The notes beneath the pieces are model-generated. The model did no database searches, was not told where the DNA came from, and saw only the letters and a program-made list of their open reading frames with translations. Source: Armatimonadota bacterium (GTDB taxonomy: Bacteria > Armatimonadota > Fimbriimonadia > Fimbriimonadales > Fimbriimonadaceae). Taken from it: 64,000 nucleotides of DNA. The position numbers and the translations under genes were made by a program. The stretch lies in contig DAIDHV010000005.1 of the NCBI GenBank assembly GCA_027451905.1, forward strand, positions 119,710 to 183,709, written 5' to 3'. Shown here in pieces: positions 25,232-29,507 of the stretch. Position 1 is the first letter of the stretch; each line of letters begins with the position of its first letter.

Positions 25232-25483
25232 GTTGGAAGAGATTACCAGCCGAGGCCAATTTCTTCAGAAGAAGATTTAATCTATACTTGTTAAGCCGAA
25301 CCTTGTAGCAACTTTTTGCGTCACAATGGTTGATTGATCCCGGTATAAATGAAAGGGTCATTAGTGTGAGATGAACCGCTACTGGAGTCTGCATGACGAA
25401 AGTTACGGCAAGTTGCTATACTAGGCGAGTACGAAAGGCAAAAACTTACTTCAGCATTGGGCGGTAAGAGCCGTGGGTGGAAA

Positions 25484-26839
25484 GTGAACGTTAGAAAACA
25501 TTTGAGCAAAGGTTTGTGGGCAGCGGCAGGAGTCACTGTCTTTTTCATCATTGGCTGCGGAGGCAGCGGCAGTACTGTGACTACGACTGGGGGGTCGAGT
25601 GCAGGATCAGGTGCAGGAGGGTCTGCGCTTTCAACTGCAACCGTCAGTTTGCCAACTTCATCCGCGAGCATGGTCGTTGAGTTCCTCACGGGACAAGGAC
25701 GCGCTGCAGGGGATACGAGGGCAGATATCAATCGAATCAATTTTGTAGATTCCAGCGGGGTCAGCTACCCTTCAAGTTTGGCTGACAACGTTTATGTGGG
25801 TCTGAATCAGTATTCGGTTAACGACATCAGTTTGCCGCTGACTCTGTCTGCTGGTCAACCCAGCCAAGAGTTTGCCCAGTTTGAACTCACGGTTAACTCG
25901 TGGGATACCCAATCTGGGGGAGGAACATGGAGCGCGGTCGGGGGCCAAAACGGAAATTTTGCGGTAGATCAGATGTATCCTGTTCAGGCAGGCGCGTTCC
26001 CGGGCCGCTTTGAAAAGCTTCCCGTGTTCCTTGATGACTCCATGTTCACCGAAGGATTCGATGCAAATTCCAATCCTTATACAATTTTTGACGCCAACGG
26101 AGCTTTTGAATCTTCAAATATGCCGAACCCGGGTCAAACTTCCTTGATGGCAGTTTTCTCGGACTTTGTTCACTTTAACATCTCTGCAGTAACAACTCCG
26201 CCAATCTTCAATGCGGCAAGCTCATACGCAGGTGCAAAGGTGACCGATGTCTACTTCAGTGGTGACCAAATTGCGCTGAGCAATGGGACAACTCAGGGTT
26301 CTGATTTTCAGATTCTAGAGCCCAACTCAGGATACGCCGATGGAATCGTAGGTTCTGTTAATGCTAGTACAGGAAGCCAGCCACCAATCAATGTGACAAC
26401 CTATAACCTGACGGTGCCAGACCCAAGAGACTTCACCGGTATTGCCCGTATTCCCGCCGGAACCGGACTTTTGCGCGACATCAGCTCTGTCACCAGTAGC
26501 TTGGGGACCTTTGAAGTTATGCTCATGCCGCAAAGCACAGATGGCAACGTTCAGACCGCAGTTGCTTTTGTCAAACCCGCAGGGCAAACATCCAACGTCA
26601 CAAATCTGTACTACGGCTCGGCTGATTTGAATGCAAAGACAATCACTTTGTATCCCATCGCAGATCTTACCAACGGAACCACCAACGGACAAATCAACGG
26701 AACCCTTTCTGGTTTGCTCAATAATGCCGGTTCGACAACTTCAACCCCTTCGCAAACCTACTTTGGTACCTACACCTTCACCGGCAGTTTGCCGACCGGG
26801 TTTACTGCCACCGGACGGTTCTTTGATTTCCGCGAATAG
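25484..26839 (+). CDS. Secreted lipoprotein of unknown function
   Basis: The protein begins with a basic n-region, a hydrophobic core and a lipobox-like FFIIGC, followed by a Gly/Ser/Thr-rich spacer (GGSSAGSGAGGS). The remaining 380 residues are beta-rich, with no motif I know; the composition resembles other large surface lipoproteins of this phylum. I chose GTG at 25484 because it gives a tight signal peptide and follows a GGTGG site; an upstream start at 25457 would add nine residues. It is divergent from yceD and ends before a terminator. Confidence 0.7.
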   Translation: MNVRKHLSKGLWAAAGVTVFFIIGCGGSGSTVTTTGGSSAGSGAGGSALSTATVSLPTSSASMVVEFLTGQGRAAGDTRADINRINFVDSSGVSYPSSLADNVYVGLNQYSVNDISLPLTLSAGQPSQEFAQFELTVNSWDTQSGGGTWSAVGGQNGNFAVDQMYPVQAGAFPGRFEKLPVFLDDSMFTEGFDANSNPYTIFDANGAFESSNMPNPGQTSLMAVFSDFVHFNISAVTTPPIFNAASSYAGAKVTDVYFSGDQIALSNGTTQGSDFQILEPNSGYADGIVGSVNASTGSQPPINVTTYNLTVPDPRDFTGIARIPAGTGLLRDISSVTSSLGTFEVMLMPQSTDGNVQTAVAFVKPAGQTSNVTNLYYGSADLNAKTITLYPIADLTNGTTNGQINGTLSGLLNNAGSTTSTPSQTYFGTYTFTGSLPTGFTATGRFFDFRE

Positions 26840-26866: not shown

Positions 26867-26907
26867 AATGTCCCGCTCGGATGCAACCTAAGCGGGACAT
26901 TTTTATT
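26867..26907 (+). terminator. Rho-independent terminator before the dop operon
   Basis: An inverted repeat (AATGTCCCGCT / AGCGGGACATT) with a 13-base loop is followed by TTTTATT. It separates the lipoprotein gene from dop. Confidence 0.82.
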
Positions 26908-26949
26908 GTCATAACCATTCTCAGTGTCAAAATTGGGTAGCTTCAAAGA

Positions 26950-28476
26950 GTGAGTTCCCTCCGTTCAGTTCGCCAAGCCATTCTGTGCGGAACCGAAACG
27001 GAATATGGGTTTACGGTGGAAGGTAGCGGGCCGGAAGATTTGGTAGACCTTGCTACCCAGTTTGTCAAGCAAATCAAAGAAGATTGCTATATCGGGTGGG
27101 ATTACCGCCATGAACACCCTCGCAGCGATTTGAGGGGATTTTCTGTCAAGCAACTTGCCTTTGATCCCACCGATGCTCAATTTGACAGAGGCAGAAGCCA
27201 TGGAAATTCTGAAGACATTCGAGCCGATCGAGTTTTGCTGAATGGGGCGCGTTTTTATAATGACCACGGCCACCCCGAATTTGCAACTCCCGAGTGTTTT
27301 CACGCCACCAATCTCATGCTGCAAGATAAGGCGGGCGAGATTGTTCTGCTGAACGCAGCAAACTCCCTTGCCGCCGAACTTGGCAAAGAAGTCCGAGTCT
27401 ATAAGAATAATACAGACTTCCATGGAGCAAGTTACGGCAGCCATGAAAGCTATCTGGTGCCAAGAGAGATTTCTTTCGAAGACCTTTACAAAGCGGTTGT
27501 GCCGATACTAGTAGCGCGGATTGTGTTATGCGGTGCCGGCAAAGCGGGCAGCGAATCGGGCTCTAAGTGCCCCTATCAAATCTCTAGCCGCGCTGATTTC
27601 TTTATGGAATCCGCGAATGTCGAAACCCTTTTCCGGCGCCCGGTTTTTAACACCAGAGATGAGCCTCATGCCGATCCGTCTCAGTGGCAAAGGCTGCATG
27701 TGATTGCTGGCGATGCCAATATGATTCCAAGCGCGGTCACCAGAAAAATTGGATTAGTTCAGCTTGCGGTGACCCTTGCCAAGGCGGGGTTCGCTCCTCA
27801 GTGGACAATCGAAGATCCGGTGGCAGCGATCAAGCAACTGTCCAGAACCATCAACCCACCCTTTGTGATTTCTCTGTCTCGAAAAAATTGGACCACTGCC
27901 ACCGAGATTTTAGAATCGTACTTTGCTGCCTTCGAGCAGCTCGATTTGGATACCGGTGATGGGTTAGAAGAGAGCAAACCACGGGCTGACTACTCAGTAT
28001 TGATCCAAGAATGCAGGACTTTGCTTCAGCAGATAGAATCTAATGACGCCGAGGCTGCCCATCACATTGACTGGCTTTGCAAAAGGAAATTGCTTGAAAT
28101 AGCCCAGGCAGAAAACAACTGGGATTGGGGCCACCATGGTCTTCAATCCTATGATCTTGAGTACCACAACATTGACCCATCGGAGGGACTCTACTTTGCC
28201 CTTGCCGATATGGGCGAGGCGGAGGCCTATCCAAAGCTAGAAGAGAGATTAGATGCTCTTGCAAACATCCAAGTCGGCACCCGAGGGTGGGTCCGCGGCC
28301 TAGCAGTTCAGAAGTTTAGAGACGAACTGGCAGGGGCGTCATGGGGTCATTTAACTTTTAAGGGCCAAGGTCAACAAAAAATAGAAGTTCCGTTAGAGCC
28401 TGACCGGATTTATGAGCCGCAACTTGCGTTAATATCAAACGTAGGAAACTTTATCTCATGTTTAACCTCAACTTAG
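26950..28476 (+). CDS. dop: Dop-like depupylase/deamidase for a ubiquitin-like modifier
   Basis: The 508-residue protein belongs to the carboxylate-amine-ligase-like Dop/PafA family. GTETEYG (residues 14-20) holds the catalytic/metal acids; other blocks are WDYRHEHPRSDLRGF, NGARFYNDHGHPEF (about 98-111), VYKNNTDFHGASYGSHE, NTRDEPHAD (about 233) and HVIAGDAN (about 250). The long segment between GTETEYG and NGAR, including DLRGF, fits Dop rather than the ligase PafA. Dop deamidates the C-terminal Gln of Pup-type modifiers and removes them from targets. The GTG start lies 42 bp after a terminator, so this is the first gene of a three-gene operon with the modifier and the proteasome subunit. Confidence 0.88.
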   Translation: MSSLRSVRQAILCGTETEYGFTVEGSGPEDLVDLATQFVKQIKEDCYIGWDYRHEHPRSDLRGFSVKQLAFDPTDAQFDRGRSHGNSEDIRADRVLLNGARFYNDHGHPEFATPECFHATNLMLQDKAGEIVLLNAANSLAAELGKEVRVYKNNTDFHGASYGSHESYLVPREISFEDLYKAVVPILVARIVLCGAGKAGSESGSKCPYQISSRADFFMESANVETLFRRPVFNTRDEPHADPSQWQRLHVIAGDANMIPSAVTRKIGLVQLAVTLAKAGFAPQWTIEDPVAAIKQLSRTINPPFVISLSRKNWTTATEILESYFAAFEQLDLDTGDGLEESKPRADYSVLIQECRTLLQQIESNDAEAAHHIDWLCKRKLLEIAQAENNWDWGHHGLQSYDLEYHNIDPSEGLYFALADMGEAEAYPKLEERLDALANIQVGTRGWVRGLAVQKFRDELAGASWGHLTFKGQGQQKIEVPLEPDRIYEPQLALISNVGNFISCLTST

Positions 28477-28655
28477 AACCGGAAGGCGATCGACTGACTC
28501 GGCCGCTGGAACCAGAGCCAGGGCGAAAGTCAGAAGATGCGGGCCCAACCCGCCCTCATATCAATCGTCCGGATTCAGGAAATGAGCTTTTCAAGCGCAT
28601 GAAAAAAATTGATCCTGACCAGGCCAAGAAGTACCGGCAGAGATCGGGTCAGTAA
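28458..28655 (+). CDS. ubact: UBact/Pup-type ubiquitin-like modifier
   Basis: A 65-residue charged, probably disordered protein that ends DPDQAKKYRQRSGQ. That tail matches UBact, the Pup-like modifier described in Nitrospirae, Armatimonadetes and other Gram-negative phyla, whose end is usually KYRQRTG(E/Q); Pup itself ends GGQ or GGE. The terminal Gln implies that deamidation by Dop is needed before ligation. The ATG overlaps the end of dop by 19 bp and its stop overlaps the beta-subunit ATG (TAATG), so all three are coupled. Attachment would mark proteins for the 20S proteasome in the cytosol. Confidence 0.88.
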   Translation: MFNLNLEPEGDRLTRPLEPEPGRKSEDAGPTRPHINRPDSGNELFKRMKKIDPDQAKKYRQRSGQ

Positions 28656-29428
28656 TGGCATCAACCACATTTAATACAACTCCAACCGATTTTCAGAAGT
28701 TGGTGGGGTATGGTCAGGCTGAATCCAGTTCTAGCATCCAGGGAGCTCTTTCATCTGATTTTGAGGTCCATGGCACCACTGTGTTGATGCTCCGCTTTAA
28801 AGAAGGAGTCATTGCCTTGAGCGACCGCAGGGCGACAGCTGGCAATTTGATCATGTACGATCATGCAGAAAAGGTCCTTGCCCTCGATGACCAGGTGCTC
28901 ATTGCAATTAGCGGTGCCTTTGCCAGAAGCATTGAGGTCTGCAGGATGCTCAAGCACTCGTTTAAGTTTTATCGCAGGGTTACATTGCAGCCTCTTTCCT
29001 TGGAAGGCAAGCTGATGGAAATTTCACGGGCATTGGCCGGAAACGCTCCTATGGCGATGAATGGCATCGGCGTTTTTTTGCCGATAGTGGCTGCCTATAA
29101 TGCAGAAAGTGAAACCTTTGAAACTTACTTCTTTGATGGGGCAGGTGCAAGATTTCAGAATGGAAGCTATGCGTGTGCGGGCTCCGGGTCAGAAAGAATT
29201 CGGGGTGTGTTTGAGTATCTGACGAGAACTCAGGGGCCCTTTGAATCGAGGAGTTTTGAGTCGGTGCTTCAAAACGGTCTAGAAATGCTTGATATCGCGG
29301 CTGAACTCGATAGTGCAACTGGAGGGTTTGATAAAACCCCGCCGGTGGTTAAAGTCCTCAAAAAAGACGGTGTTTCTTCGGTTGAAGGAAAGACCTTGCA
29401 AGACCTCATCAAGCAAGTTTTGGCTTAG
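28655..29428 (+). CDS. prcB: 20S proteasome beta subunit
   Basis: The protein carries a 40-residue propeptide and then the Ntn-hydrolase core starting G40|TTVLML. The catalytic triad positions fit exactly: Thr41 (mature Thr1), Asp57 (Asp17, in LSDRR) and Lys73 (Lys33, in HAEKVLAL). GSGSERIRGVF and DSATGG are further family blocks. It forms the proteolytic rings that degrade UBact-tagged proteins. No alpha subunit follows; a terminator closes the operon at 29456 and the next gene is convergent. Confidence 0.93.
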   Translation: MASTTFNTTPTDFQKLVGYGQAESSSSIQGALSSDFEVHGTTVLMLRFKEGVIALSDRRATAGNLIMYDHAEKVLALDDQVLIAISGAFARSIEVCRMLKHSFKFYRRVTLQPLSLEGKLMEISRALAGNAPMAMNGIGVFLPIVAAYNAESETFETYFFDGAGARFQNGSYACAGSGSERIRGVFEYLTRTQGPFESRSFESVLQNGLEMLDIAAELDSATGGFDKTPPVVKVLKKDGVSSVEGKTLQDLIKQVLA

Positions 29429-29455: not shown

Positions 29456-29507
29456 AAGGCTCAAACCGGTTTCCTGACAGGAAGCGGTTTGAGCCTTGCC
29501 TTTTTTT
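29456..29507 (+). terminator. Strong terminator after the proteasome operon
   Basis: A 13-bp perfect outer stem (AAGGCTCAAACCG / CGGTTTGAGCCTT) continues into an inner arm (TTCCTG / CAGGAA) and is followed by a run of seven T. It marks the end of the dop-UBact-prcB operon. Confidence 0.9.

Follow-up and report, generated by a model that had tools for sequence, protein, structure and literature searches.

The window analysed here, a 64,000-nt stretch of an Armatimonadota genome, carries a tightly packed set of genes for a Dop homologue, a 65-residue modifier and a proteasome beta subunit. This arrangement raises the question of which protein-tagging system the locus serves, and whether that system is complete. 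One candidate is the UBact system, whose modifier is thought to tag proteins for destruction by the bacterial proteasome. A sequence-only reading of this DNA had described the three genes as joined by a 19-bp overlap and a TAATG overlap, and its coordinates proved correct to the base (Table 1). The two strong terminators that it placed on either side of the unit were recovered by RNA folding (z of about -4.7 and -6.4), whereas a simple pattern scan gave neither.

Table 1. Features of the dop-ubact-beta unit in the window, and further components of the system on other contigs. G000 is the genome of the window; C1, C2 and C3 are its contigs other than the window's.
Feature	Position	Strand	Evidence
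Intrinsic terminator of the upstream gene	26867-26901	+	RNA fold -19.3 kcal/mol, z -4.72; T run after stem
Possible sigma-70-type promoter, weak	26906-26933	+	TTGTCA-16-CAAAAT; TG before second hexamer; 9/12 consensus matches
dop, predicted UBact deamidase/deconjugase	26950-28476	+	PF03136; TIGR03688 above TIGR03686; PDB 4B0R; catalytic residues conserved
ubact, 65-residue ubiquitin-like modifier, end RQRSGQ	28458-28655	+	NF033388; PF20513; invariant columns
Proteasome beta, 40-residue propeptide, catalytic T41 (T1)	28655-29428	+	PF00227; TIGR03690; PDB 2H6J
Intrinsic terminator, 3' end of dop-ubact-beta unit	29456-29497	+	RNA fold -28.8 kcal/mol, z -6.35; then T run
PafA	G000:C3:198021-199394		Second PF03136 protein; best match PafA model
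Alpha	G000:C1:419180-419773		PF00227; PDB match
ARC/Mpa ATPase	G000:C2:366609-368288		Both OB domains and AAA domain

The dop reading frame opens with GTG and encodes 508 residues. Its end runs 19 bp into the modifier gene, whose ATG is the sole start codon 5' of the conserved core and is preceded by AGGA 11 nt upstream. The modifier ends in KYRQRSGQ, and its stop codon has one base in common with the start of the 257-residue beta subunit. Such overlaps are not an unusual device, given that a 4-bp overlap is found at one or both junctions in most relatives of the family. Junction overlaps at the UBact loci of relatives are mostly 4 bp, and the 19-bp and 1-bp overlaps of the window are local variants. 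The upstream terminator insulates the unit from the preceding gene, and we infer that dop, ubact and beta share a single transcript. Promoter-like pairs of the kind listed in Table 1 occur across the region in about the number expected by chance in a consensus scan. Just 5' of the upstream terminator lies a gene for a 460-residue protein with a lipoprotein-like start (25457-26839), for which neither Pfam nor NCBIfam gives a match at E up to 0.001.

By profile comparison, the modifier is UBact. It scores 76.1 bits with the NCBIfam model NF033388 (curated cut-off 35) and 74.1 bits with the Pfam model PF20513 (curated cut-off 27.8), and 15 columns are invariant in the UBact alignment A1. No Pup model of either collection matches it at E up to 1. 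The view that the modifier fits UBact and not Pup, taken earlier from its tail, is thus borne out by two UBact models and no Pup model. The E-values for the unit, which range from 1.8e-21 for UBact to 2.9e-124 for Dop against Pfam, exclude chance as the source of these identities.

The same comparison indicates that Dop is a genuine member of its family. It scores 416 bits with PF03136, and 342 bits with the Dop model TIGR03688 versus 266 bits with the PafA model TIGR03686. Although TIGR03688 is its best model, the score falls below the equivalog cut-off of 492 bits. The solved Dop structure 4B0R aligns over nearly the whole length (E 3.7e-80), with its Dop-loop region at about residues 49-92. 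In this alignment E16, Y103, D105, E110 and R214 of the window's protein correspond to E8, Y92, D94, E99 and R205. Furthermore, comparison with 138 Dops and 25 PafAs from relatives shows no variation at Y103, D105, H108, E110, H165 or R214; at position 236 the window's protein and 138/138 Dops have Arg, and 25/25 PafAs have Lys. The earlier assignment as a Dop homologue accordingly stands, with the catalytic residues E16, Y103, D105, E110, H165 and R214 conserved and solved Dop structures as the closest matches.

The beta subunit scores 68.6 bits with PF00227 and 116.8 bits with TIGR03690, and its closest matches are actinobacterial beta subunits (PDB 2H6J, E 3.9e-25). Cleavage within HG|TT at residues 40/41, a site present in 106 of 114 relatives, would make T41, D57 and K73 residues 1, 17 and 33 of the mature protein. 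These three residues had been proposed as the catalytic triad, and they equal T1, D17 and K33.

The remaining components are encoded on three other contigs, which makes the UBact system of this genome complete but dispersed. The genome encodes two PF03136 proteins, Dop and a putative PafA. The latter favours the PafA model over the Dop model by a narrow lead (290 versus 284 bits), is without the Dop-loop and carries the PafA-type Lys at position 236. Loss of the alpha subunit had been suspected from its absence in the cluster and was ruled out by the gene on another contig, whose match is weak (29.9 bits with PF00227; PDB E 7.5e-10). None of Dop, PafA, beta, alpha and ARC reaches its NCBIfam equivalog cut-off, a shortfall that probably reflects the actinobacterial proteins from which these models were made.

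The dispersed genes are tied into one system by their arrangement in outgroups. Thirteen of the 80 named loci, all from other Armatimonadota, carry ARC-Dop-UBact-beta-alpha-PafA in one direction, and the other named loci mostly hold parts of this series. The block Dop-UBact-beta occurs in 55 of the 80. In f2 and f3, two families of the window's order, it continues into alpha, with PafA adjoining in several cases, and in the window's family it stands without alpha or PafA. Because the full cluster is the more widely spread, we infer that the compact unit is a remnant from which PafA, alpha and ARC have departed. In family f5, locus L041 has no beta gene near UBact; loss of the proteasome was ruled out there, as the genome encodes both beta and alpha at other sites.

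The closest named UBact loci belong to Fimbriimonadaceae, Fimbriimonas and other Armatimonadota records. Among 41 relatives, UBact was found in 39, Dop/PafA and ARC in 40 each, and alpha in 38, so that the complete gene set recurs in nearly all of them. UBact is present in 167 of 291 Armatimonadota genomes. Our survey therefore describes a UBact system that is near-universal in one order and common in the phylum, in contrast to an account in which Dop/PafA homologues were termed very sporadic in Armatimonadota (PMC7947786). These counts also dispose of the novelty that had been claimed for the locus: an arrangement seen at 55 of 80 loci is typical, and carriers in this phylum are widespread.

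Several genomes depart from this pattern. Two 1.5-Mb genomes of the window's family (G147 and G148, 97% complete) have no UBact, and the whole system appears to have been lost. The same is apparent for G027 of the same order, in which UBact, Dop/PafA, ARC and alpha are missing and a single PF00227 match remains, perhaps HslV. Five genomes (G063, G042, G048, G049 and G078) give two or three UBact matches each, possibly from duplicated modifiers or mixed bins. At L234 a UBact match lies in a 5.8-kb piece in which neither Dop nor beta was found alongside.

The modifier tail RSGQ is likewise no peculiarity of this genome. UBact ends in RQRSGQ or RQRSGE at 54 of 54 loci in one set and at 79 of 80 named loci in another (the two sets may have organisms in common), which makes RQRSG[QE] a family signature. 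The sole exception among the 80 ends in RQRTGQ. Locus L235, in a record labelled Bacteroidetes, has an ARC-Dop-UBact-beta-alpha run with the modifier end RQRTGQ and the ARC end AII.

When mapped on a tree built from 78 beta subunits, the last UBact residue requires at least 17 changes between Gln and Glu, and 11 of these are forced by well-supported branches. The frequency of such changes across the tree shows that Gln or Glu is no fixed lineage trait, and this switching is now testable. The C-terminal Gln of PupQ is deamidated (PMC7947786), and by analogy a Gln-ended UBact would need a deamidase if PafA acts as it does with Pup. Loci with a Glu-ended UBact keep Dop too, which would fit a second role of Dop in modifier removal.

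The ARC tail suggests that the last step may differ from that of mycobacterial Mpa, whose C-terminal GQYL, with tyrosine as the penultimate residue, mediates docking on the 20S core (PMC8755798; PMC8223512). ARC of the window genome ends in RKNII and has no GQYL or HbYX docking motif. A penultimate Tyr is absent from all 47 distinct Armatimonadota ARCs whose end is complete; each has V, I or M at this position, and 44 have I or V as the last residue. The conserved end is R-x-x-[VI]-[IV], as seen at L006:1450-3132 (on C2 of the window genome) and at L236-L265. The last two positions have entropies of 1.05 and 1.09 bits, and the fifth from the end, which is mostly Arg, has 1.26 bits; the values rise to about 2.9 to 3.6 bits over positions 6-14 counted from the end. 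In addition, the alpha-pocket lysine (K48 in this genome, aligned by means of the YDR motif that directly follows it) is present in 79 of 79 alphas. Conserved terminal positions and an invariant pocket lysine together make tail docking with other side-chain chemistry plausible, and this is the simplest reading of the ARC ends. More specifically, ARCs of UBact systems may dock on the 20S core by R-x-x-[VI]-[IV]-COOH in place of GQYL or HbYX, a tentative proposal to which we give a little less than even weight. Whether a tail without the usual docking motif serves in this way is now testable.

Taken together, the unit very probably supplies Dop, UBact and beta to a complete UBact-proteasome system in an Armatimonadota bacterium of Fimbriimonadaceae type. 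If the observed genes, families, catalytic residues and gene set work by analogy with pupylation, Dop would deamidate the Gln at the UBact C-terminus, yielding Glu, and PafA would phosphorylate this Glu and join UBact to a target lysine. The N-terminal region of ARC would then capture tagged proteins, and ARC would unfold them and feed them into a 20S core formed by the beta subunit of the window and the alpha subunit encoded elsewhere. Dop could also remove UBact for reuse.

Two other accounts of the unit concern its identity, and we regard both as extremely improbable. The modifier might be a true Pup, and the system ordinary actinobacterial pupylation gained laterally, as the homology of the enzymes to Dop and PafA and the identical logic of a terminal Gln or Glu would allow. 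The profile scores rule out Pup, however: only UBact models match the modifier, the UBact profile retrieves none of the Pup chains in the PDB at E up to 10, and the tail is RQRSG[QE] and not GGQ or GGE. A decayed or repurposed Dop paralogue could account for two features of the window's protein, namely the replacement by Ser of Q213, which is present in 136 of 138 Dops, and a Dop-PafA identity that is lower in the window's family (27-32%) than in outgroups (34-40%). Such decay is difficult to reconcile with a frame that is open through 508 codons and with the integrity of every catalytic position checked.

A third account accepts the modifier and its enzymes and separates them from the proteasome. 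Some actinobacteria have Pup and no proteasome, and conjugation here might similarly serve mainly for signalling or storage. The ARC ends without the canonical docking motif point in this direction, as does the loss of linkage of ligase and ATPase to the modifier in the window's family. Against this stand the direct coupling of beta to UBact and Dop at 55 of 80 loci, the joint retention of beta, alpha, ARC and UBact in nearly all relatives, and the genome G027, where UBact is missing together with Dop, PafA, ARC and alpha. We consider this account unlikely, if less so than the two above, and favour a UBact system coupled to the proteasome.

The UBact conjugation-proteasome system was described by Lehmann, Udasin, Livneh and Ciechanover (2017, BBRC 483:946), as cited in PMC12751074. 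The system itself is thus already known, as the sequence-only reading had said of the UBact family, and the window's unit is ordinary for its family. In the literature searched we found no experimental study of any UBact system; these systems are known from sequence. The present system has in common with the described one a UBact-family modifier ending in RSG[QE], Dop and PafA homologues, 20S alpha and beta subunits and ARC. It differs in that only Dop, UBact and beta lie together, with PafA, alpha and ARC outside the cluster. Compared with the actinobacterial Pup-proteasome systems of Mycobacterium, Acidothermus and Rhodococcus, the modifier here is UBact with an RSGQ end and no detectable similarity to Pup, and ARC ends in [VI][IV] and not in GQYL. 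Nevertheless, the two systems have in common homologous Dop, PafA, ARC/Mpa, alpha and beta proteins, as well as a modifier that ends in Gln and presumably requires deamidation.
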